Shown here: piece by piece, positions 20,597-37,751 of the stretch | Position numbering within the stretch: position 1 is the first letter of the stretch | Layout: each line of letters opens with the position of its first letter | Origin: Limnohabitans sp. INBF002 | GTDB lineage: Bacteria > Pseudomonadota > Gammaproteobacteria > Burkholderiales > Burkholderiaceae_C | DNA: 64,000 nt | Assembly (NCBI RefSeq): GCF_027924905.1 | Contig: NZ_AP027055.1 | Coordinates: forward strand, 868,001 to 932,000 | Reading direction: 5' to 3' | The notes under the pieces: generated by a model | The model's database searches: none | What the model saw: only the letters and a program-made list of their open reading frames with translations | Told to the model about the DNA's origin: nothing | Program-made: the position numbers and the translations under genes

Positions 20597-20878
20597 TCAC
20601 GCGAGGCGGCCCGACCTTCGCAAAACCTGCTGCGCATTTTAGGCAGCACCCATTTCTTGTAGATTATATTCTGTGAACGCCCAGCCATGTTCGCGGCCTA
20701 TTAGCTCAACTGACTGTCAGAAATTATTGAGAGTTGCGACTGCGGTCTGTTGGAAGTCACTATGGCGGACCGCTTATGGCCGAATGCGGCCGTGCAAGAC
20801 CATGGCATGAAGGGCAGCTCCCGCTGCGAAGCAGTCGTCAATTTTCGCCAACGTTTGTTGCTGACATTTGCTAATTTA
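20597..20878. other. intergenic region with GCGGTC/GACCGC inverted words
   Basis: No gene is supported. GCGGTC at 20742-20747 and GACCGC at 20768-20773 form an inverted pair, and related words (TATGGCCGAATGCGGCCG) continue to about 20793. The same GCGGTC word appears twice in the 17.4 kb intergenic region, so these may be degenerate copies of a dispersed intergenic repeat. A short antisense frame at 20701-20922 has no coding character. Confidence 0.35.
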
Positions 20879-27353: not shown

Positions 27354-28145
27354 TTAGCCCGCAGCGACGAGGCGCTGGTTGTTCTGTTCGATGTGCAGCA
27401 AGCCTTGCAGCACATCGCCCACCACGATGACGGAAGGGCTGGCCATTTGGTCGCGCACCACGGTGTGGTGCAGATCATTCAGGGTGCACACCACATGGCG
27501 TTGCGTGGGCAGGCTCACGTGTTGAATCACCGCCACAGGTGTGTGGGGGTCTAGTCCGTGCAGCAATGCGGCTTGCAGTTGCGCCGCACCGCGCATGCCC
27601 ATGTAAATGACCAAGGTGAGCTTGGCCTGTGCCGCGGTGTGCGACAGGGCTGCCCAATCCACGGCATCGGTGGCATCTTGTTTCGCGTGGCCGGTGATGA
27701 ACAACACGCCATGCGCATGTGCGCGGTGCGTCAGCGGCACGCCCAATGAGGTGACGCCTGCCAAGCCTGCGGTGATGCCGTTGATGACGGTGACCTTCAC
27801 ACCTTGCGCGCGCAAGTGTTCGACTTCTTCACCGCCACGTCCAAAGATGAAAGGGTCGCCGCCTTTGAGGCGCACCACGTTTTCGCCGCCCAAGGCTTCT
27901 TGCAGCATCAGCTTTTCGATGAACGCTTGGGGTGTGGATTGACAGCCGCCACGTTTGCCCACATGGATGATGCGTGCGGACGGCGAGGCGTAAGTGACGA
28001 TGGCGTCGCTGACCAAATCGTCGACCAACAAAACGGTGGCCGCTGCAATGGCTTTGACCGCTTTGAGGGTCAACAGTTCAGGGTCGCCCGGGCCTGCGCC
28101 CACGAGCGTGACGTGTGGCTGTGCGTGTGTCTTGCTGTGTGTCAT
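27354..28145 (-). CDS. cobA: uroporphyrinogen-III C-methyltransferase
   Basis: The 263-residue SUMT enzyme makes precorrin-2, the precursor of siroheme used by NirB. Seen motifs are VTLVGAGPGDPELLTLKAVKAI, VVRLKGGDPFIFGRGGEE, and GVPLTHRAHAHGVLFITGH. ATG 28145 is the start because it overlaps the nasA stop (ATGA) and places the SAM-binding motif at residue 12. An in-frame extension to 28427 runs antiparallel through nasA coding sequence and is not conserved. It is a stand-alone SUMT; the oxidase/chelatase step must come from another gene. Confidence 0.94.
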   Translation of the reverse strand: MTHSKTHAQPHVTLVGAGPGDPELLTLKAVKAIAAATVLLVDDLVSDAIVTYASPSARIIHVGKRGGCQSTPQAFIEKLMLQEALGGENVVRLKGGDPFIFGRGGEEVEHLRAQGVKVTVINGITAGLAGVTSLGVPLTHRAHAHGVLFITGHAKQDATDAVDWAALSHTAAQAKLTLVIYMGMRGAAQLQAALLHGLDPHTPVAVIQHVSLPTQRHVVCTLNDLHHTVVRDQMASPSVIVVGDVLQGLLHIEQNNQRLVAAG

Positions 28146-31024
28146 GTCGTGTGCTCGGTGAGTTGAATCATGCGGCGCAGTTCGGGCACGCACGAGCCGC
28201 ATTGGGTGCCGCACTTGAGCGTGCCTTGCAACGATGCCAAGCGTTGTGCGCTGTCGCCTTTGTAAATCTTCAGGTGGTTGCGAATGGCCACATCTTTCAC
28301 GCCCACGCAGCTGCACACGGTGGTGCCTGCATCGACCAAGGCCACCGGTGGTTTGCTGCCGGTCATCAACAAGCGGCGTCCATATGCGTGGGTCGATGCT
28401 TGTGTTTGCAACAAAGCTTTGAGCCACGTTTCAGCTGAGGTGTCGCCCGCGATGATGAAGGCCTGTAGCTGTGTGTCGTTGACTTTGTTTGCCTCGCTGT
28501 GTTGCAAACGCATGCTGCGCAATTGGCTGCGCTTGGCGTCGACGTAGCGCAAGCTGTCGCTGCCGCTCAAGCCCAAGAGCTGCTCCATGTCGTGCACCCA
28601 AGCCATGTCGGGCGCTTCGCTGCACGCCGCACGCATCAACACGCCTTGACGGGCGGGGCCCTCAGTGGGGGTATCGCTGAACGGCACGCAGCTGGCAAAT
28701 TCAAACTGCACCATGCGCGCGCGCAGGGCTTGCAAGGTGGTTTGCGCTTTGTCTTCGGGCAACCACGCCACGGCGAGCAAGGTCCAAGGCAGTTCGGCTT
28801 TGAGCACTTTGACCGCGGCATGCTTGAGCTCGGGCTGCTTGGAGCTGGGGCAATACGCCGAGGTGGTGATGGCGTTGACGCCTGCGAGCGGTTTGTTTTG
28901 GTGGTCGCGACCGCTCAAAAACGCAGGGCCCCAGTGCATGGCGATGAAGGCTTGGTGGGTGCCGAGGTCGCTGGTGGCCTGGGCGGGCACCACGATGGAG
29001 CCGCGCTTGCTGGTGACGTGCACCAAGCCGCCTTCGGTCAAGCCGAGTCGCGCCATGTCGTCGGGGTGCAACTGCACCGCAGGCTCCGACACATGGCCAA
29101 ACAGTTTGCCGACCAAGCCGGTGCGCGTCATGCCGTGCCACTGGTCGCGCAAGCGGCCGGTGTTGAGCGAGAACGGAAAACGTGACTCGCGGGCTTCCGC
29201 CGTGGGCACATAAGGCAAGGCTGCAAATTTGGCGCGCCCGCTGGCGGTGGCAAACACGCCGTCTTCGTACAAGCGCGCTTGGCCGTGGGCGGCGCCTTCG
29301 CGCATGGGCCATTGCTCGGGCGTGGTTTCTAAGTGTGCGTAGCTCAAGCCCGTGATGTCGAGGTCACGGCCGCGGGTGGATTCGCGGTGCTCCACCCAAA
29401 TTTCTTCGGGCGAGGTGTAGGCCATGTGCAGGCCGCGGGCGGCGTTGTTTGGGTGTCCCAACGAGGATGCGTTATCGGGTGTGGCGTGTGGCGTGACACC
29501 CGGCTCTTCACGCAAACGCGCAGCCAAGTCCACCACGATTTGCCAGTCGTGCCGCGCTTGACCGGGCGCAGGCACAGCCGCACGCACGCGGGTGATGCGG
29601 CGTTCGCTGTTGGTGACGGTGCCTTCTTTTTCACCCCAGGTGGTGGCGGGCAACAACAGGTCGGCGAAGGCGCAGGTTTCGGCTGTGGCAAAGGCTTCTT
29701 GCACCACCACAAACTCCGCGCGTTCTAAGGCGCGGCGCACGGTGGCTTGGTCGGGCATGGATTGCGCCGGGTTGGTGCAGGCAATCCACAGCGCTTTGAT
29801 TTCGCCGTCGGCGGCGGCTTCAAACATCTCGACGGCAGTCTTGCCGGGCTTGGATGGCACATCGTCAATGCCCCACAAGGCAGCCACTTCGGCGCGGTGT
29901 TCGGGTTTGCTCATGTCGCGGTGCGCGCTGATGAGGTTGGCCAAACCACCCACTTCGCGTCCGCCCATGGCGTTGGGTTGGCCGGTGAGTGAGAAGGGGC
30001 CTGCACCGGCTTTGCCAATTTGTGCGGTCGCCAAATGCAAGTTGATGAGCGAGGCGTTTTTGGCGGTGCCGCTGCTGGATTGGTTCAAGCCTTGGCAGTA
30101 CAGGCTGAGCGTGCGCCATGCGGGGTCAGGTGCGTTGTTGGCGCTGTGCGGCGGCACGCCCGCAAACCAGCGGGTGGCTTGCAGCAGTTGTTCAGGGGTG
30201 ATGCCGCAGACCTCTTGCACGCGTGCCGGCGTGTAGTCGGCCACCAAGGTTTGCAAGGCTTCAAAGCCCTCGGTGTGTGCGGCAATGTAAGCCGTGTCGA
30301 CCCAGCTCTCGGCCAGCATCACATGCAACATGCCGTGAAACAAGGTCACATCGGTGCCGGGTTGCAGCTGCAAATGCAGGTCGGCGCTGCTGGCGGTGTC
30401 GGTGCGACGCGGGTCGGCCACGATGATTTTGAGGTTGGGGTTTTTCGCCCGCGCGTCTTCGATGCGCCTGAACAAAATCGGGTGCGCATAGGCCGCGTTG
30501 CTGCCCGCAATAAACAGGCAGTTGGCGTGCATCACGTCGTCGTAGCAAGCGGGCGGGGCATCAGCGCCGAGGGTGAGCTTGTAGCCCGCCACGGCGCTGC
30601 TCATGCACAGGCGCGAGTTGGTGTCGATGTTGTTGGTGCCCAGCAAGCCTTTGGCCAACTTGTTGAACACGTAATAGTCTTCGGTCAGCAACTGGCCCGA
30701 CACATAAAAACCCAAAGCATCAGGCCCGTGCGCGCGCACGATGCTGGCCAGTGTTTGGCTGGCCAGTTGCATGGCGTTGTCCCACGCCATGGGTTGCAAA
30801 CTGCCGCCACGTACCAAGCGACGCATGGGTTGCAGCAAACGCGTTTGTTCTGCCATCACGGGGCTGGCCGTGAGGTGCAAGTTCGAGCCTTTGCTGCACA
30901 AGCGGCCAAAGTTGGCAGGGTGCGTAGGGTCGCCACGCACGCCTGTGATGTGGCCCGCATTCGATTCGATGATGACGCCGCAGCCCACGCCGCAGTAGGG
31001 GCAGGTTGAACGCGTTTCTTTCAT
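28142..31024 (-). CDS. nasA: assimilatory nitrate reductase catalytic subunit
   Basis: The 960-residue molybdopterin oxidoreductase has an N-terminal [4Fe-4S] motif CPYCGVGC (C8, C11, C15, with C42 in GRLCSKGSN), the Mo-bis-MGD domains and the dinucleotide-binding C-terminal domain (FSLNTGRLRDQWHGMTRTG). An added C-terminal BFD-like [2Fe-2S] domain follows with C-x-C and C-x4-C-x2-C (VCSCVGVKD, LKCGTQCGSC). This is the cytosolic NasA/NarB type that reduces nitrate to nitrite. It lies 50 nt after nirD and overlaps cobA. Confidence 0.95.
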   Translation of the reverse strand: MKETRSTCPYCGVGCGVIIESNAGHITGVRGDPTHPANFGRLCSKGSNLHLTASPVMAEQTRLLQPMRRLVRGGSLQPMAWDNAMQLASQTLASIVRAHGPDALGFYVSGQLLTEDYYVFNKLAKGLLGTNNIDTNSRLCMSSAVAGYKLTLGADAPPACYDDVMHANCLFIAGSNAAYAHPILFRRIEDARAKNPNLKIIVADPRRTDTASSADLHLQLQPGTDVTLFHGMLHVMLAESWVDTAYIAAHTEGFEALQTLVADYTPARVQEVCGITPEQLLQATRWFAGVPPHSANNAPDPAWRTLSLYCQGLNQSSSGTAKNASLINLHLATAQIGKAGAGPFSLTGQPNAMGGREVGGLANLISAHRDMSKPEHRAEVAALWGIDDVPSKPGKTAVEMFEAAADGEIKALWIACTNPAQSMPDQATVRRALERAEFVVVQEAFATAETCAFADLLLPATTWGEKEGTVTNSERRITRVRAAVPAPGQARHDWQIVVDLAARLREEPGVTPHATPDNASSLGHPNNAARGLHMAYTSPEEIWVEHRESTRGRDLDITGLSYAHLETTPEQWPMREGAAHGQARLYEDGVFATASGRAKFAALPYVPTAEARESRFPFSLNTGRLRDQWHGMTRTGLVGKLFGHVSEPAVQLHPDDMARLGLTEGGLVHVTSKRGSIVVPAQATSDLGTHQAFIAMHWGPAFLSGRDHQNKPLAGVNAITTSAYCPSSKQPELKHAAVKVLKAELPWTLLAVAWLPEDKAQTTLQALRARMVQFEFASCVPFSDTPTEGPARQGVLMRAACSEAPDMAWVHDMEQLLGLSGSDSLRYVDAKRSQLRSMRLQHSEANKVNDTQLQAFIIAGDTSAETWLKALLQTQASTHAYGRRLLMTGSKPPVALVDAGTTVCSCVGVKDVAIRNHLKIYKGDSAQRLASLQGTLKCGTQCGSCVPELRRMIQLTEHTT

Positions 31025-31074: not shown

Positions 31075-31425
31075 TCAGTGCGCGGCGTCGTCAATGGCGA
31101 GCGTGTTGAGCTCGTTCACATCCAAGGCCACATCGCCGTTTTCTACACGCACCGCAAAGCGGGTGGTGCAGCCCTCGTCGGGGGCATGGGCGCAGCCATC
31201 AACCAAACCGATGTGCCAGTTGTGCAACGGGCACACCACGGTTTCGCCAAACACCAAGCCTTGGCTCAAGGGGCCGCGCTTGTGCGGGCATTGGTCGAGC
31301 AAGGCAAACACTTTGTCTTCGGCGTTGCGAAACACCGCCACTTCGACGCCCTTGGCGCGCTGCACGCGGCGTGCGCCCAGCACGGGGATGTCGTCAACTT
31401 TGCAAATGACTTTCCATTCGGTCAT
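31075..31425 (-). CDS. nirD: nitrite reductase small subunit, Rieske type
   Basis: The 116-residue protein is NirD. Unlike the E. coli NirD, which lacks cluster ligands, it keeps a complete Rieske set: C46-x-H48 (CPHKRG) and C65-x2-H68 (CPLHNW). It should carry a [2Fe-2S] cluster and pass electrons to the siroheme subunit NirB. It lies 11 nt after nirB and 50 nt before nasA. Confidence 0.93.
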   Translation of the reverse strand: MTEWKVICKVDDIPVLGARRVQRAKGVEVAVFRNAEDKVFALLDQCPHKRGPLSQGLVFGETVVCPLHNWHIGLVDGCAHAPDEGCTTRFAVRVENGDVALDVNELNTLAIDDAAH

Positions 31426-31436
31426 GGTGTGTTTCC

Positions 31437-33908
31437 TTAAACGGTGAGGGCTTCAAACTGGCGCGTGTCGACTTGTGCTTTGTCGAACTCAAACCATGGG
31501 TCGGGTTCGCCGTCGAGCGCAAATTGCAAACGTGCCCACAAGGCTTTGCGGCCTGCTTCGTCGTCCAAGATTTTTTTCTTCACATAGTCCATGCCCACGC
31601 GGTTCACGTAGTGCACGGTGCGCTCCAAGTACCAGCCTTCTTCGCGGTAGAGCTGCATGAAGGCACCGGTGTACTCCATCACTTCTTCTGAGGTTTTGAC
31701 CTTCACAAAGAACTCGGCCACTTCGGTTTTGATACCGCCGTTGCCTGCGATGTACATCTCCCAGCCGCTGTCCACGCCGATGATGCCCACGTCTTTGATG
31801 CCGGCCTCTGCGCAGTTGCGCGGACAGCCTGACACCGCAAACTTCACTTTGTGCGGCGCGTACATGCGCCACATGGCTTTCTCAAGGTCCTTGCCCATTT
31901 GTGTGCTGTCTTGCGTACCCATGCGGCACCACTCGCTGCCCACGCAGGTCTTGACGGTACGCAAAGCTTTGGCGTAGGCGTGGCCGCAAGGCATGCCAAT
32001 GTCTTTCCACACATTGACCAAGTCTTCTTTCTTCACACCGAGCAAGTCAATGCGTTGACCGCCCGTGACCTTGACGGTGGGAATGTTGTATTTGTCAACC
32101 ACATCGGCAATGCGGCGAAGCTCGTCGGCGGTGGTCTCGCCACCCCACATGCGTGGGATGACGCTGTAAGTGCCATCCTTTTGGATGTTGGCGTGGCTGC
32201 GCTCGTTGATGAGGCGGCTTTGCGGGTCGTCCAAGGCTTCTTTGGGCCAGCTGCTCATGCGGTAATAGTTGATGGCAGGGCGGCAGGTGGCGCAGCCCGT
32301 GGCTTTGACGTCTGCGCTTGGTTTTTTCCACTCTAAGAATTCAAACACCGCGTCGTTGGTCAACAGCTTGTGGTCACGAATCGCGTCGCGCACTTCTTGG
32401 TGGCTGTGGTCGGTACAAGCGCAGATGGCTTTTTTCTTTGGTGTGGCCGAGTAGTCGCCGCCTGCGGTGAACATCAAAATTTGTTCGACCAAGCCTGTGC
32501 AGGAGCCGCACGAGGCGCTGGCCTTGGTGTGCTTGCGCACCTCATCCAAAGTGAATAAACCTTTGTCTTTGATGGCTTTGCAAATCGCGCCTTTTTTCAC
32601 GCCGTTGCAACCACACACCTCGGCATCGTCGGGCATGCTGGCGGCTTTGCTGTGGCCTTCATGGCCCACGTCGCCAATGTTGGATTCGCCAAACATCAGT
32701 TTCTCGCGGATGTCGGCTACGCTGCGGCCATCGCGCAGGAGCTTGAAGTACCAGCTGCCGTCCACGGTGTCGCCATACAAACACGCGCCCACCAATTGGT
32801 CGTTGCGGATGACGAGTTTTTTGTACACGCCTTCGTGCGGATCGCTCAACACAATCTCTTCGGTGCTGCCGTCGTTACTGCCCATGAAGTCGCCCGCGCT
32901 GAACAAATCAATGCCGGTGACTTTGAGCTTGGTCGAGGTGAGCGAGCCGGTGTAACGGCCAATGCCGAACTCGGCCAAATGGTTGGCCAACACCTTGCCT
33001 TGTTCAAACAAAGGTGCCACCAAACCATAGGCAATGCCACGGTGGGCCGCACATTCGCCCACGGCATAAATGCGTGGGTCGGTCACGGTTTGCAGTGTGT
33101 CGCTGACCACAATGCCACGCTCGCAATGCAGGTGCATTTTTTCGGCCAGCGCTGTGTTGGGTCGAATGCCCACAGCCATCACCACCAACTCGGCGGGGAC
33201 GTGTGAACCGTCTTTGAACAACACCGATGCCACACGCCCGTTTTTGTCCGCTTGCAATTCTTGGGTGTGTGCGCCCATGCGGAATTGCATGCCGCGTTCT
33301 TCGAGCGAGCGTTGCAACAAACCGCCCGCGACTTTGTCGAGCTGACGCTCCATCAGCCATTCGCCGACGTGCACCACGGTCACGCTCATGCCGCGCTTCA
33401 TCAAACCGTTGGCGGCTTCGAGGCCGAGCAAGCCGCCGCCAATCACTACGGCGTGTTTGTATTGTGTGGCCGCGTCAATCATGGCCTGTGTGTCGGCGAT
33501 GTCGCGGTAGGCCAGCACGCCGTCCAACTCGCGGCCTGGCACGGGCAGCATGAAGGGGTTGGAGCCCGTGGCCAAAATCAAGCGGTCATACGGCGCGCTC
33601 TTGATTTCGCCTGCAGCGTTGGTGGCGTGCACCACGCGTTTGACGCGGTCCACCTCGGTCACCGTCCAGCTGGTGTGCAAGGTGATGTGGTTGTCGCTGT
33701 ACCAGTCGATTGGGTTGAGGATGATTTCATCCAAGGTTTGCTCACCCGCCAACACGGGCGACAACAAGATGCGGTTGTAGTTGGGGTGTGGCTCCGAGCC
33801 GAAGACGGTGATGTCGTACAGGTCTGGCGTGAGCTTGATGAGTTCTTCCAAGGTGCGCACACCGGCCATGCCGTTGCCCACCATCACGAGTTTGAGTTTG
33901 TTGGTCAT
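31437..33908 (-). CDS. nirB: NADH-dependent nitrite reductase large subunit
   Basis: The 823-residue cytosolic enzyme reduces nitrite to ammonium with NADH. The order of domains is an FAD/NAD(P) domain (VMVGNGMAGVRTLEEL; VVIGGGLLGLEAANGL), two BFD-like [2Fe-2S] domains (EVCGCNGVKKGAICK; ICACTDHSH with CATCRP), then the siroheme/[4Fe-4S] module with VGSEWCRMG and SGCPRNCAEAG. ATG 33908 (MTNKLKLVMVGNGM) follows AGGAGTTGG; an upstream in-frame extension to 33962 overlaps the nrtD end and is not conserved. Confidence 0.95.
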   Translation of the reverse strand: MTNKLKLVMVGNGMAGVRTLEELIKLTPDLYDITVFGSEPHPNYNRILLSPVLAGEQTLDEIILNPIDWYSDNHITLHTSWTVTEVDRVKRVVHATNAAGEIKSAPYDRLILATGSNPFMLPVPGRELDGVLAYRDIADTQAMIDAATQYKHAVVIGGGLLGLEAANGLMKRGMSVTVVHVGEWLMERQLDKVAGGLLQRSLEERGMQFRMGAHTQELQADKNGRVASVLFKDGSHVPAELVVMAVGIRPNTALAEKMHLHCERGIVVSDTLQTVTDPRIYAVGECAAHRGIAYGLVAPLFEQGKVLANHLAEFGIGRYTGSLTSTKLKVTGIDLFSAGDFMGSNDGSTEEIVLSDPHEGVYKKLVIRNDQLVGACLYGDTVDGSWYFKLLRDGRSVADIREKLMFGESNIGDVGHEGHSKAASMPDDAEVCGCNGVKKGAICKAIKDKGLFTLDEVRKHTKASASCGSCTGLVEQILMFTAGGDYSATPKKKAICACTDHSHQEVRDAIRDHKLLTNDAVFEFLEWKKPSADVKATGCATCRPAINYYRMSSWPKEALDDPQSRLINERSHANIQKDGTYSVIPRMWGGETTADELRRIADVVDKYNIPTVKVTGGQRIDLLGVKKEDLVNVWKDIGMPCGHAYAKALRTVKTCVGSEWCRMGTQDSTQMGKDLEKAMWRMYAPHKVKFAVSGCPRNCAEAGIKDVGIIGVDSGWEMYIAGNGGIKTEVAEFFVKVKTSEEVMEYTGAFMQLYREEGWYLERTVHYVNRVGMDYVKKKILDDEAGRKALWARLQFALDGEPDPWFEFDKAQVDTRQFEALTV

Positions 33909-33918
33909 GTCCAACTCC

Positions 33919-34752
33919 TTAGTGTTTTTCGACGTGCGCTTGGCGCGTGTACAAAAAGTCAATCACGGCTTTGCGGTAGTGCAAATAGGCAGGGTCGTCA
34001 GCCAGCGTCACGCGAGAGCGGGGGCGAGGCAGGTCCACGTGCAGCACTTCGCCGATGGTGGCAGCGGGGCCGTTGGTCATCATCACAATCTTGTCGGACA
34101 GCAACACGGCTTCGTCCACATCGTGCGTCACCATCACCACGGTGCTTTGCGTGTTGGCCACGATGGCCAGCAACTCGTCTTGCAGCTTGGCGCGTGTCAA
34201 TGCATCCAAGGCGCCAAAGGGCTCGTCCATCAACAGCACTTGCGGTTCCATGGCCAAGGCGCGGGCAATGCCCACACGTTGCTTCATGCCACCCGAAATC
34301 TCGCCAGGGCGCTTTTGTGCGGCGTGGCTCAAGCCCACCATGTCGAGTGCCGCGTGGGTGCGTGCGGTGAGTTGGGCTTTGTCTTCTTTGGGCTTGCCGT
34401 CCACGATGCCGCTTTGACCGAACACGCGTTCCACGCCGAGGTAAACGTTTTCAAAGCAAGTGAGCCAAGGCAAGAGTGAATGGTTTTGAAACACCACCGC
34501 ACGCTCGGGGCCGGGGCCTGCGATTTCGCGGTTGGCGCAAATCAAGGTGCCTTGTGTTGGCGTGGTCAAACCTGCAATGAGGTTGAGCAAGGTGGACTTG
34601 CCGCAACCCGAGTGGCCGATGAGGGCGACGAACTCGCCTTTGCCCACGGTCAGGTCGATGTCGCGCAGCGCAGGGAAGTCGCCTTTGGCGGTGCGAAAGG
34701 TTTGGGCCACGCCCTGAATTTGCAAATACTTGCTGGTCAACGATGCGTTCAT
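33919..34752 (-). CDS. nrtD: nitrate ABC transporter ATP-binding protein
   Basis: The 277-residue ATPase has Walker [10 protein letters not shown], the ABC signature EISGGMKQR (first S of the LSGGQ replaced by I), and Walker [15 protein letters not shown]. The sequence is of the NrtD/SsuB/TauB group. It couples ATP hydrolysis to nitrate import by NrtA/NrtB. It overlaps nrtB by 4 nt and is 10 nt before nirB. The NrtC fusion ATPase found in cyanobacteria is absent. Confidence 0.92.
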
Positions 34753-35534
34753 GACTGCACCTCCTCAAAGGTGAATGCGGTGGCGAGTTTGATGAGGGCG
34801 TACTCCAACACCAAGCCCACAATGCCAATCACGAAGATGGCGATGATGATGTTTTTCACATTCAGGTTGTTCCACTCGTCCCACACCCAAAAGCCAATGC
34901 CCACGCCGCCCGTCAGCATCTCAGCCGCAACGATGACCAACCAAGCGGTGCCCACGGCCAAGCGCACGCCGGTCAACATGTAGGGCAGCACAGCGGGGAA
35001 CAAAATCTTGCTGACAATCTTCCATTCCGAGAGGTTGAGCACACGCGCCACGTTCATGTAGTCTTGCGGCACACGTTGCACGCCCACGGCGGTGTTGATG
35101 ACCATGGGCCAAATCGAGCAAATGAAGATGGTCCAAATGGCCGCAGGGTTAGCGCCTTTGAACACCAACAAACCAATAGGCAACCAAGCCAAGGGCGACA
35201 CAGGGCGCAACAAGCTGATGAGCGGGTTGAACATGCGAGACAAGAACTCGAAGCGCCCAATCAAGAAGCCCAAAGGAATGCCCACCAGCGCGGCCAAGCC
35301 AAAGCCCAGTGCCACGCGTTTGAGAGAACTCCACACGTTCCAGCCCACGCCTTGGTCGTTGGGGCCGTTGCTGTAGAACGGGTTGCTGAACACATCCACG
35401 GCTTGCCAGAAGGTGTCGGTTGGGTTGGGAAAGTTGTTGGTGCTGGTGACAGACACCAGCGACCAAATGCCCACCAGCAGTGCCAAGCCCATGAAGGGCG
35501 GCACCACGCGTGACAACAGGTGTTTCAAATACAT
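34749..35534 (-). CDS. nrtB: nitrate ABC transporter permease
   Basis: The 261-residue protein has about six membrane helices and the binding-protein-dependent permease loop (EAA-like) around [39 protein letters not shown]. The sequence [19 protein letters not shown] matches NrtB/CmpB. It pairs with NrtA and NrtD to import nitrate and perhaps nitrite. It lies 39 nt after nrtA. Confidence 0.93.
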
Positions 35535-35573: not shown

Positions 35574-36818
35574 TTACGCATGGACCTTGAAGCTGTCGGC
35601 GTATTTCTTCGGGTCTTTGCCGTCCCACACCACGCCGTCCATCAATTTGCTGGTGCGCATCACGTCTTTAGGCACTGGCGTTTTGCTGGCCGCAGCGGCT
35701 TGTTTGAAGAGGTCGATTTGGTTGATCTCTTTGGCCACTTTCAAATAGTCAGGGTGGTCTTTGAGCAAACCCCAGCGCTTGTGTTGCGTGAGGAACCACA
35801 TGCCGTCTGAGAGGTAAGGGAAGTTGGCCGTGCCGTCGTTGAAGAACTTCATGTGGTTGGGGTCGTCCCAGGTTTTGCCCAAACCGTTTTGGTAGCGACC
35901 TAAGATGCGTTGGTTGATCACGTCCACGCTGGTGTTGACATACGATTTGTCGGCGATGGTTTCGGCCATCTTCATTTTGTTTTGCAAGCCCGCGTCAATC
36001 CACTTGCTGGCTTCCAAAATCGCGGCGGTCACAGCGCGTGCGGTGTTGGGGTATTTCTTGACGAAGTCGCCCGTGGTGCCCAACACTTTTTCAGGGTGGT
36101 CACGCCAGATGTCTTGCGTGGTGGCGGCGGTGATGCCAATGCCATCGGCAATCGCGCGGTGGCCCCAAGGCTCGCCCACGCAGTAGCCGTCCATGTTGCC
36201 CACGCGCATGTTGGCCACCATTTGAGGGGGCGGTACGGTGATGACCTTGGCGTCTTTGAGTGGGTTCACGCCCACGCTGGCCAACCAGTAATACAGCCAC
36301 ATGGCGTGTGTGCCCGTGGGGAAGGTTTGTGCGAAGGTGTATTCGCGTTTCTCGGAGGCCATCAGTTTGGCGAGGCTGGCCGCATCGACCGCGCCTTTGT
36401 CGGCGAGCTTTTTGGACAGCGTGATGGCTTGGCCGTTTTGGTTCAAATTCATCAACACGGCCATGTCTTTTTTAGGACCGGCCGTGCCCATGTGCACGCC
36501 GTAAATCAGGCCGTACAAAGCGTGGGCAAAGTCAAGCTCGCCGTTGACCAATTTGTCGCGCACACCGGCCCAGCTGGACTCTTTGGTGGGGATGATCTTG
36601 ACGCCATACTTTTTATCGATGCCCAACACCGACGCCATCACCACGCTCGCGCAGTCGGTGAGGGGAATGAAGCCAATGCGCACTTCTTCTTTTTCGGGCT
36701 TGTCTGAACCTTGGGCATACACCGCGGCACGCAACGCGGGGGCGATGGTCAGTGCGCCTGCGGTGGCAGCTTGCAAAATGTTGCGGCGGCTCATGGGGGT
36801 CTCCAAAAGTTTCGTCAT
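35574..36818 (-). CDS. nrtA: nitrate-binding periplasmic protein NrtA/CmpA family
   Basis: The 414-residue protein begins with a twin-arginine type signal (MSRRNILQAATAGALTIAPALRAAV, split here by the window rule only in this note's reading; the RR pair is at residues 10-11). The mature part follows the NrtA pattern: VRIGFIPLTDCASVVMA, ESSWAGVRDKLVNGELDFAHAL, GNMDGYCVGEPWG. It binds nitrate in the periplasm, or at the membrane, for NrtBD. It follows the regulated leader at 36855-36960. It is also homologous to the soluble sensor NasS, but the export signal marks it as the transporter component. Confidence 0.92.
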   Translation of the reverse strand: MTKLLETPMSRRNILQAATAGALTIAPALRAAVYAQGSDKPEKEEVRIGFIPLTDCASVVMASVLGIDKKYGVKIIPTKESSWAGVRDKLVNGELDFAHALYGLIYGVHMGTAGPKKDMAVLMNLNQNGQAITLSKKLADKGAVDAASLAKLMASEKREYTFAQTFPTGTHAMWLYYWLASVGVNPLKDAKVITVPPPQMVANMRVGNMDGYCVGEPWGHRAIADGIGITAATTQDIWRDHPEKVLGTTGDFVKKYPNTARAVTAAILEASKWIDAGLQNKMKMAETIADKSYVNTSVDVINQRILGRYQNGLGKTWDDPNHMKFFNDGTANFPYLSDGMWFLTQHKRWGLLKDHPDYLKVAKEINQIDLFKQAAAASKTPVPKDVMRTSKLMDGVVWDGKDPKKYADSFKVHA

Positions 36819-36854
36819 GACATCACTCCTAAATAAAAAACTGGGGCAGAAACG

Positions 36855-36908
36855 ACAAAGGCGTCCTCACCACAGGCACCTAGGGTGCATGGGTGGGGAC
36901 GCCTTTGT
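36855..36908 (-). terminator. leader terminator (attenuator) of the nrt operon
   Basis: On the minus strand, ACAAAGGCGTCC pairs perfectly with GGACGCCTTTGT over 12 bp, with a further inner stem (GCACC/GGTGC) in the loop. A T-rich stretch and then TTTTTT follow before the nrtA ribosome site AGGAGTG. The 5' arm is shared with the second ANTAR hairpin at 36897-36910, so the two structures exclude each other. Confidence 0.75.
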
Positions 36909-36928
36909 CCTTGAACCGTCATTGGTTC
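36897..36928 (-). promoter_or_regulatory. dual hexaloop ANTAR-binding RNA element
   Basis: Reading the minus strand, hairpin 1 (36928-36913) has stem GAACC/GGTTC and loop AATGAC. Hairpin 2 (36910-36897) has stem GGAC/GTCC and loop AAAGGC; only two nucleotides separate them. Both loops are six bases with A at position 1 and G at position 4, the published recognition rule for ANTAR-domain antiterminators. Hairpin 2 uses the 5' arm of the downstream terminator. Binding of the adjacent NasT-like protein should therefore stabilise hairpin 2 and let transcription proceed into nrtA. Confidence 0.8.
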
Positions 36929-36943
36929 TTACTGTGGACTGTT

Positions 36944-36959
36944 TGCAATAGCTGTGCCA
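36944..36959 (-). promoter_or_regulatory. sigma-54 (RpoN) promoter of the nrt operon
   Basis: The minus strand reads TGGCACAGCTATTGCA, an exact fit to TGGCAC-N5-TTGCA, the -24/-12 consensus. Transcription would begin about 12 nt beyond the GC, near 36933, just before the first ANTAR hairpin. NtrC-dependent nitrogen control is the expected activator input; no NtrC site was resolved by eye. Confidence 0.82.
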
Positions 36960-36982
36960 GCTGTTGAGGGTTCTCCCGTATG

Positions 36983-37008
36983 AAAAAACGCCCCATGGCG
37001 GGGCGTTT
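36983..37008 (-). terminator. terminator of the ANTAR regulator gene
   Basis: The minus strand reads AAACGCCCC, a 5-nt loop, GGGGCGTTTTTTC, a strong Rho-independent terminator. It separates the regulator gene from the sigma-54 promoter of nrtA. Confidence 0.92.
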
Positions 37009-37039
37009 GCATCAAAGCGCACCAAGAAGGCGCACCAAA

Positions 37040-37693
37040 CTAGGACAGCAGGTCTGCCATGTCCAAGGTGCGTTGCGCCACCTCGGCCATCTTTAGGCCT
37101 TTGTCCATTGCAATTTTGCGCAGCTTGCTGAAGGCGTCTTTCTCGCTCAAACCTTGGCGTTCCATCAGCAGCGCTTTGGCGCGGTCGACCACGGTGCGTT
37201 CTTGCAGCGCATGGCGCGCATCGTCGCGTTCATCGCGCAAGCGTTCTTCATATTCAAAGCGGGCCATGGCCACATCGAGGATGGGGCGAATGCGCGTGCT
37301 CGATAGCCCGTCGACGATGTAGGCCGACACGCCCACCGCCACAGCGTCGCGCACATGGGTGGTGTCGTTGTCGTCGGTGAACAGCACGATGGGGCGGCGC
37401 TCGTCACGGGTGGCGAACACCACGTGTTCTAAGGCATCGCGTGCTTCAGATTCAGCGTCCACGATGATGAGATCGGGTTGCAACTGGTGGATGCGGTCTG
37501 ACAAGAACACATCGGCAGGCAGCGTGGCAATCAGGTTGAAGCCGCTTTCTAGCAAACCAATTCGCAAGGCGCGAGAACGCTTGGCCTGAGAGACGGCGTG
37601 GTCGTCACCTGTGTCTTGCACATCCAAGTCTGGGGCGACCACGACGATCCTCAAGGCTTCGTGTTTTTTATTTTTTTGAGACTTGCTTTTCAT
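37040..37693 (-). CDS. nasT: ANTAR-domain antiterminator, NasT-like
   Basis: The 217-residue protein has a receiver-like N-terminal domain and a C-terminal ANTAR RNA-binding domain at about residues 155-213 (VDRAKALLMERQGLSEKDAFSKLRKIAMDKGLKMAEVAQ). In the receiver, LIIVD keeps an Asp, but the usual switch lysine is replaced (AYIVDGL), as in NasT, so phosphorylation is unlikely. NasT is normally held by the nitrate sensor NasS and, when released, prevents termination in nitrate operon leaders. No nasS is present in the window. The nrtA leader 80 nt downstream carries the matching RNA element. Confidence 0.9.
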   Translation of the reverse strand: MKSKSQKNKKHEALRIVVVAPDLDVQDTGDDHAVSQAKRSRALRIGLLESGFNLIATLPADVFLSDRIHQLQPDLIIVDAESEARDALEHVVFATRDERRPIVLFTDDNDTTHVRDAVAVGVSAYIVDGLSSTRIRPILDVAMARFEYEERLRDERDDARHALQERTVVDRAKALLMERQGLSEKDAFSKLRKIAMDKGLKMAEVAQRTLDMADLLS

Positions 37694-37751
37694 GAAGGTT
37701 CATCGTGTGGACCTTCATGGTGAGCAAGTATTGGGCCAAACGGCCGCTTGT

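Follow-up and report, generated by a model that had tools for sequence, protein, structure and literature searches.

A compact leader of probable ANTAR type behind a sigma-54 promoter upstream of the nitrate uptake gene nrtA in Limnohabitans sp. INBF002

A short leader precedes nrtA, the gene of a nitrate-binding protein, in a 64,000-nt stretch of the Limnohabitans sp. INBF002 chromosome (the window), and it raises the question of whether it is a transcription attenuator under the control of an ANTAR protein and, if so, which signal such a switch would read. A preliminary description of the sequence had taken these 106 bp as a "fully readable" two-layer control by nitrate, consisting of a sigma-54 promoter and of an attenuator with two hairpins whose six-base loops carry A at position 1 and G at position 4 (A1/G4 hexaloops). 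The genome has a size of 2.59 Mb in a single contig and is 100% complete, and the closest nrtA loci among the best 80 matches of a longer list belong to a Comamonadaceae MAG and to Limnohabitans sp. B9-3. In short, the switch is of an established kind, and the variant at this locus is compact and clade-specific and has no expected sensor that could be found.

The nitrate gene cluster, its promoter and its leader

In the direction of transcription, the minus strand carries an ANTAR gene (nasT-like), a terminator-like sequence, a sigma-54 site, hairpin P1, a linker of 2 nt, hairpin P3, a terminator, a ribosome-binding sequence and nrtA, followed on the same strand by nrtB, an ATPase gene, nirB, nirD and a nitrate reductase-like gene (Table 1). 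The first gene of the presumed operon is nrtA, and the terminator-like sequence in front of the promoter suggests that the ANTAR gene and nrtA are located on separate transcripts. A scan of the window for sigma-70 promoters and terminators reported neither this element nor the terminator of the leader, the probable cause being the limits of the scan on loop and tail. At gathering scores, Rfam gave three matches in the window and none at the nrtA leader. A match to the nhaA-I riboswitch is located at 20602-20651 (minus strand, 49.2 bits).

Table 1. Features of the nitrate assimilation locus in window coordinates.
Feature	Position	Strand	Basis
nasT-like gene, 217 aa, atypical receiver and ANTAR	37040-37693	-	Pfam ANTAR, 67.6 bits
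NtrC-like palindrome TGCGCC-TTCTT-GGTGCG	37018-37034	-	sequence scoring, 10/12 of TGCACC-N5-GGTGCA
Terminator-like CGCCCC-GCCAT-GGGGCG-TTTTTT, 3' of the ANTAR gene	36983-37005	-	read from sequence
Sigma-54 promoter TGGCAC-AGCTA-TTGCA	36944-36959	-	exact match to TGGCAC-N5-TTGCA; conserved
Predicted transcription start	36933	-	sigma-54 geometry, ~12 nt past the -12 GC
Hairpin P1 (hairpin 1), GAACC-AATGAC-GGTTC, 5 bp, A1/G4 loop, putative recruitment hairpin	36913-36928	-	fold; covariation in compact leaders
Linker AA, 2 nt	36911-36912	-	exactly 2 nt in 15/15 compact leaders with canonical P1 loop
Hairpin P3 (hairpin 2 of the preliminary description), GGAC-AAAGGC-GTCC, 4 bp, putative antitermination hairpin	36897-36910	-	three-way covariation with terminator
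Terminator hairpin, 13-bp bottom helix, excludes P3	36854-36909	-	-42.5 kcal/mol; kept in relatives
Terminator tail TTTGTCGTTTCT	36848-36859	-	U-score 4.18
nrtA, nitrate-binding protein, twin-arginine motif	35574-36818	-	NMT1_2, 336.4-338 bits; matches NrtA 2g29
nrtB, permease	34749-35534	-	TIGR01183 above cut-off
Nitrate ABC transporter ATPase gene	33919-34752	-	TIGR01184 above cut-off
nirB, from first inner ATG (listed ORF starts at TTG 33962)	31437-33908	-	TIGR02374 above cut-off
nirD	31075-31425	-	TIGR02378 above cut-off
Assimilatory nitrate reductase-like molybdoenzyme gene	28142-31024	-	460 bits on NasC, under its cut-off of 1100

Within the window, the sigma-54 pattern is matched perfectly at this site only. 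When up to two mismatches are allowed, sites are no more common than expected by chance (50 versus 52.4 in shuffled sequences), and the weight of the call therefore lies in its exactness and its conservation: the pattern was found 5' of nrtA in 79 of the 80 loci, and the remaining locus has just 16 nt of upstream sequence. Transcription from sigma-54 promoters starts about 12 nt after the GC of the -12 element. The consensus of NtrC binding sites is TGCACC-N5-GGTGCA, and a best score of at least 10/12 within 220 nt upstream was obtained for 36 of 117 leaders as opposed to about 1% of composition shuffles, with positions scattered between -220 and -50. The ntrC gene of the genome scores above its family cut-off, and rpoN is also present. 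Judged by sequence alone, a sigma-54/NtrC promoter as in nasF-type systems lies upstream, and this first layer would read nitrogen limitation through NtrC. A sigma-54-like sequence, TGGCCC-N5-TTGCT, is located about 30 nt before nasT (37723-37738, minus strand) and 7 of 50 loci, L007-L009 among them, have a similar one; transcription of nasT may itself be under nitrogen control.

The folded leader reaches -51.9 kcal/mol and is thereby 5.9 s.d. more stable than 200 shuffles. Its bottom helix in the terminator form pairs 36909-36897 with 36866-36854, and the energy comparison that the preliminary description had suggested turns out clearly, with -42.5 kcal/mol for the terminator versus -4.0 kcal/mol for P3 alone (P1 alone, -4.9 kcal/mol). 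The tail TTTGTCGTTTCT is weaker than the mean of compact leaders (U-score 4.56) and of long leaders (5.68), two classes described below. In a scan of the genome, which scored 150 out of 2095 first candidates, the window leader obtained 57.1 bits and the runner-up, with 17.1 bits, was the opposite strand of the same terminator. All elements of the preliminary description are present at the positions it gave, both of its loops (AATGAC and AAAGGC) fit the A1/G4 pattern, and the ANTAR gene that it placed just upstream is the only ANTAR match of the genome and adjoins the leader. Its terminator exists as well, with an uninterrupted bottom helix of 13 pairs instead of a 12-bp stem, and does reuse hairpin 2, though not merely the 5' arm: the end of this arm, the loop and the 3' arm, nearly the whole hairpin, are included. 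The described stretch precedes nrtA but ends 36 bp before its ATG. With two short hairpins with A1/G4 six-base loops, the second of which overlaps an intrinsic terminator, the leader shares these two traits with dual-hexaloop RNAs.

Promoter, hairpins, terminator and gene neighbourhood, like the conservation and covariation treated below, are read directly from the sequences. We consider it highly probable that expression of the nrtABC-nirBD-nitrate reductase operon is controlled by an ANTAR attenuator similar to that of nasF behind an NtrC/sigma-54 promoter, with P3 held by NasT. Under nitrogen limitation, NtrC would activate the promoter, and a transcript that probably spans the entire operon would start a few bases before P1. 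Without active NasT-like protein, P3 would be taken up by the much more stable terminator, which would end transcription. Active NasT would dock on P1 and would then be handed over to P3, 2 nt downstream, holding it before the terminator's 3' arm has been transcribed, and the polymerase would pass. The view of the preliminary description that sigma-54 promoter and ANTAR antitermination leader belong together is supported by the conservation, the covariation, the NtrC-like site and the single adjoining ANTAR gene, which all point to such a switch. Several points speak against our explanation, among them the weak tail, the scattered NtrC-like sites, the broken P1 loops and the limited covariation of compact leaders described below, and the linker of 2 nt, which is below the 3 nt that drastically reduced the induction of eutP (PMC3369931, available in part).

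The regulator and the search for its sensor

Sequence relatives of the nasT-like protein include Rv1626, EutV, NasR and AmiR. Its N-terminal region can be aligned to EutV and Rv1626, although it gives no Pfam receiver match; the acceptor Asp is kept and the receiver Lys is replaced. Thereby the NasT-like receiver-ANTAR protein of NasS-NasT systems is present, and the NIT-ANTAR architecture of NasR is not, ANTAR being the only match within the 217 residues. A search of the genome for NIT domains gave no match, though the controls were likewise unmatched, so that this outcome carries no weight. In 16 of the 80 nrtA loci, largely from Variovorax, the regulator matches over its last 81-116 residues only, and the one of these that was scanned, from locus L037, combines NIT and ANTAR domains as NasR does; upstream of nrtA in 12 of the 80 loci, no ANTAR match was found. 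One leader type thus appears to occur beside two regulator types.

As a query for NasS we used the protein encoded next to the ANTAR gene in Paracoccus ferrooxidans, which is annotated as "nitrate transporter" and matches NMT1_2 with 197.6 bits from residue 3 onwards, leaving no room for a signal. In the Limnohabitans genome this query matches NrtA only. The NMT1_2 family has five members there, the four besides NrtA with 33-46 bits, and no relatives of nrtA were found in the upstream sequence of the 80 nrtA loci, which covers at most 4 kb and is shorter for some. A cytoplasmic NasS, the partner in NasS-NasT systems, was accordingly found in neither the genome nor the upstream sequences. No conserved sensor gene was detected beside nasT in 50 loci either; the two commonest neighbour families, with 27 of the 50 loci each, lie on opposite strands and probably represent a single divergent gene read in both ways, which we take to be tsaD. 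The twin-arginine motif of NrtA was considered as a marker of NasT-type versus NasR-type loci and discarded: the pattern occurs in 79 of the 80 loci, and the last one, L083, has both arginines too. Since NasS was not found, the second layer is left without an identified nitrate sensor and, with a first layer that would read nitrogen limitation, the locus falls short of the fully readable nitrate control of the preliminary description.

For the same reason NasT might always be active. This leads to an alternative which we regard as doubtful, albeit the most serious one, in which NasT would be constitutively active without NasS, the leader would pass the polymerase at a fixed rate, the attenuator would be a relic or a gain setting, and the operon would respond to nitrogen limitation only. 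The RNA mechanism would be common to both explanations and the signal would differ. The outcome of the NasS searches is in favour of it, as is a Paracoccus nasS mutant which expresses nas genes without nitrate and still not with ammonium (PMC5424462, available in part). A useless terminator should decay, however, and P3 and terminator are conserved in sequence and pairing although only one strong NMT1_2 protein was counted in 39 of the 66 family-sample genomes with a NasT-type regulator (two or more in the other 27; a limited number of candidates was scored and some genomes are incomplete), which counts against a permanently active NasT. The absence of NasS raises the question of which signal NasT listens to in these bacteria.

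Leader classes and covariation among relatives

Besides the window, 138 loci were analyzed, comprising the 80 nrtA loci and NasT loci from the family and the genus. Leaders with P3 and terminator were obtained from 126 of these 139 loci, 117 of them distinct; the finder demanded G4 and C6 in P3 and left 13 loci without leader, so that its counts of G4 in P3 are conditional. When no letter rule was applied and loops with pairable ends were omitted, A1 and G4 were present in P3 of all 109 distinct leaders. G1 was seen in the P3 loop of 8 of the 117. The distance between promoter and P3 splits the leaders into 23 compact (32-37 nt) and 94 long ones (54-106 nt), including one reassigned promoter (L138).

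Many long leaders contain a further hairpin between P1 and P3, termed P2, with 10-21 pairs in the fold and a loop AACGGC, AATGGC or similar. An A1/G4 hexaloop is found at the place of P2 in 71 of 94 long leaders (mean of 3.6 in dinucleotide shuffles) and at the place of P1 in 47 (mean of 1.1); both are canonical in 33 leaders, one or both in 85 and neither in 9. For the compact class, 15 of 23 leaders have such a loop at the place of P1, compared to a mean of 0.2 in shuffles. With a slightly wider search range, P2 was detected in 73 long leaders; in the 69 with the hexaloop in the minimum-energy fold, it is separated from P3 by a median of 4 nt (range 0-11). In view of this gap and of the 2 nt in compact leaders, a putative recruitment hairpin lies directly before P3 in both classes, and the best explanation is that P1 of the window leader would have the role of the longer P2 in most long leaders of its relatives. 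The comparison points to P3 as the fixed, nearly invariant part, with upstream hairpins that are exchangeable.

The compact leaders with a non-canonical P1 loop (8 of 23) retain P3 and terminator; the change is G1 in L009 and others in L010, L128, L129, L130, L131, L134 and L136. L128, L129 and L131 carry the P1 loop CTCCAA with an unchanged P3 and represent natural variants in which the putative recruitment loop is altered. A design of two hexaloops, as assumed in the preliminary description, is therefore not the rule, given the A1/G4 hexaloop of P2 in most long leaders and these broken first loops. The compactness which it pointed out, two nucleotides between the hairpins, is real and fixed in one clade.

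Covariation was analyzed in two alignments. Among the compact leaders (A1; 23 rows, 14 distinct), 4 of the 5 pairs of P1 changed on both sides, with a score of 0.223 versus 0.113 in shuffled alignments, matched by 1 of 500; the plain count of such pairs was reached by 69 of 500. P3 is invariant in this alignment, and its covariation therefore rests on other genera. The second alignment (A2) is made up of 71 long leaders out of 94 and leans to those with P2, as 12 of the 23 leaders omitted for odd length or layout lack an A1/G4 P2. Here both sides changed in 13 of 17 pairs, pairing is kept in 92.0% of cells, and the score of 0.396 (0.153 shuffled) was reached by 0 of 500 shuffles and fell to 0.047-0.133 when the pairing was slid. 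The third pair of P3 is G-C with a terminator G in 108 of 117 leaders, A-T with a terminator A in 7 and A-T with a terminator G in 2, a three-way change as is predicted for mutually exclusive structures. The terminator runs through the 5' arm of P3 in 13 of 23 compact leaders; in 93 of 94 long leaders this arm lies outside the terminator helix and its third base still changes with the P3 partner in 9, so that the covariation speaks for P3 itself. The leader alignment proposed in the preliminary description thus bears out covarying stems, and A1/G4 conserved for hairpin 2 and only in part for hairpin 1.

The broken P1 loops bear on a second alternative, in which P1 would be a dispensable leftover 5' hairpin and NasT would act on P3 as a single hexaloop. 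It could account for the compact leaders that keep P3 beside a non-canonical P1 and for the long leaders with neither canonical hairpin, and the minimal motif in the EutV structure paper was likewise reduced to one hexaloop (PMC8934654, available in part). We nevertheless judge it improbable in view of the exact linker beside every canonical P1 of the compact class, the covarying P1 stem, the canonical P1 or P2 in most long leaders and the lowered induction of eutP upon deletion of P1 (PMC3369931, in its available part). An ordinary intrinsic terminator with an unrelated 5' hairpin, the hexaloop letters being a by-product, is very improbable: terminator pairing does constrain the P3 loop, so that its conserved letters alone prove little, but P1 and P2 lie outside the terminator and exceed the shuffles in A1/G4 loops, the P3 arm covaries outside the terminator helix, and the same parts stand beside NasR in Klebsiella.

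Regarding descent, a NasT tree (77 rows, NasT-type only; quick method with midpoint root) places the compact class on one side of a single branch with support 99, corresponding to one change. In EutV, Arg142, Lys149 and Glu160 are RNA-contact residues and Tyr164 stacks on G4 of the loop (PMC8934654, as far as available). The window protein keeps the residues aligned to the former three and has Phe at residue 188, the equivalent of Tyr164; across the 23 loci of the compact class this position is occupied by Phe (17), His (4) or Tyr (2), versus Tyr in 57 of 73 long-class loci with a match (21 without match), where the rows with Phe or His are NasR-type except L140 and L141. By these alignments, the change goes with the compact clade and is inseparable from common descent.

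When 300 genomes of the order were searched with a model of the long leader, 84 gave a match at E <=0.01 (rough E-values), our compact leader included. Of 30 matched loci inspected, 12 have two A1/G4 hexaloops before P3 (L166, L167, L172, L176, L180, L182, L183, L185, L186, L188, L189 and L190), 3 yielded no P3 with terminator, and a few others look chance-like. From this spread of two-hexaloop leaders across the order we infer that the compact form lost P2. In other Burkholderiales, matches lie before a gene other than nrtA (L170, L171, L173, L176, L181, L183, L189 and L191), presumably that of an MFS nitrate transporter. Across the class, the compact model gave matches in 3 of 369 genomes, one of which is our own (strict filters, few candidates scored per genome). 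One further match, L154, looks like coding sequence. L153, from a distant genome of the class, has a single AAAGGC hexaloop within a terminator, followed by what we take to be a formate/nitrite transporter gene.

A bolder view, which we consider a long shot, unites modular Burkholderiales leaders, made of a nearly invariant P3 and one or two exchangeable hexaloops, with a NasT that works without NasS and, at its boldest, makes NrtA the missing sensor. The cytoplasmic precursor of NrtA would hold NasT until nitrate binds, and owing to its twin-arginine motif NrtA would fold before export. The same motif is, however, also present in the 16 loci whose regulator is NasR-like, which makes a special link between NrtA and NasT less likely. 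If true, the product of a transporter gene would control its own leader.

Comparison with known systems

Published work already covers the dual-hexaloop plan and its occurrence in nasF, as well as the joint control by Ntr and NasR in Klebsiella (PMC3369931 and PMC5424462, both available in part). In the literature searched, which included PMC3795266 and PMC7496416 in part and few subscription papers, no description of nitrate leaders with three hexaloops or of the 2-nt form was found.

NasS-NasT systems, as in Paracoccus and Azotobacter, likewise have a NasT-like protein next to nitrate assimilation genes, and that of the window shares 42% identity with the ANTAR protein encoded next to the NasS-like gene in Paracoccus ferrooxidans. 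These systems have NasS, whereas none was found in the window genome. The closest likeness in the RNA is to nasF/NasR of Klebsiella (K. pneumoniae record), which shares the sigma-54 site, a P1 of GAACC-AATGGC-GGTTC, the P3 loop AAAGGC in the 5' arm of the terminator, an ANTAR gene directly upstream and an nrtA-like first gene. It differs in its linker of 10 nt (read from sequence) and in its NIT-ANTAR regulator, compared to 2 nt and an atypical receiver-ANTAR protein without NIT match in the window.

More generally, the ANTAR dual-hexaloop RNAs of eut, amiE and nasF (Ramesh 2012, PMC3369931, available portion) agree with the leader in two A1/G4 hexaloop hairpins, the second inside the terminator. 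They have two hexaloops, whereas relatives of the window leader often have three, and the linkers of E. faecalis eut span 5-12 nt as opposed to 2 nt here. Linkers of 2-25 nt were accepted in actinobacterial predictions (PMC8164766, available in part), which puts the window leader at the edge of this range, and EutX has one extra hexaloop besides the dual motif (PMC8934654, same partial text). The 2-nt pair, the leaders with an extra hexaloop and those with a broken first loop, all with a common terminator hairpin, form a natural series which makes the model of ANTAR recruitment and hand-over testable. Altogether, the leader follows a known plan, and new are the longer leaders in 94 of 117 cases, 71 of them with a P2 hexaloop, together with the compact 2-nt clade.
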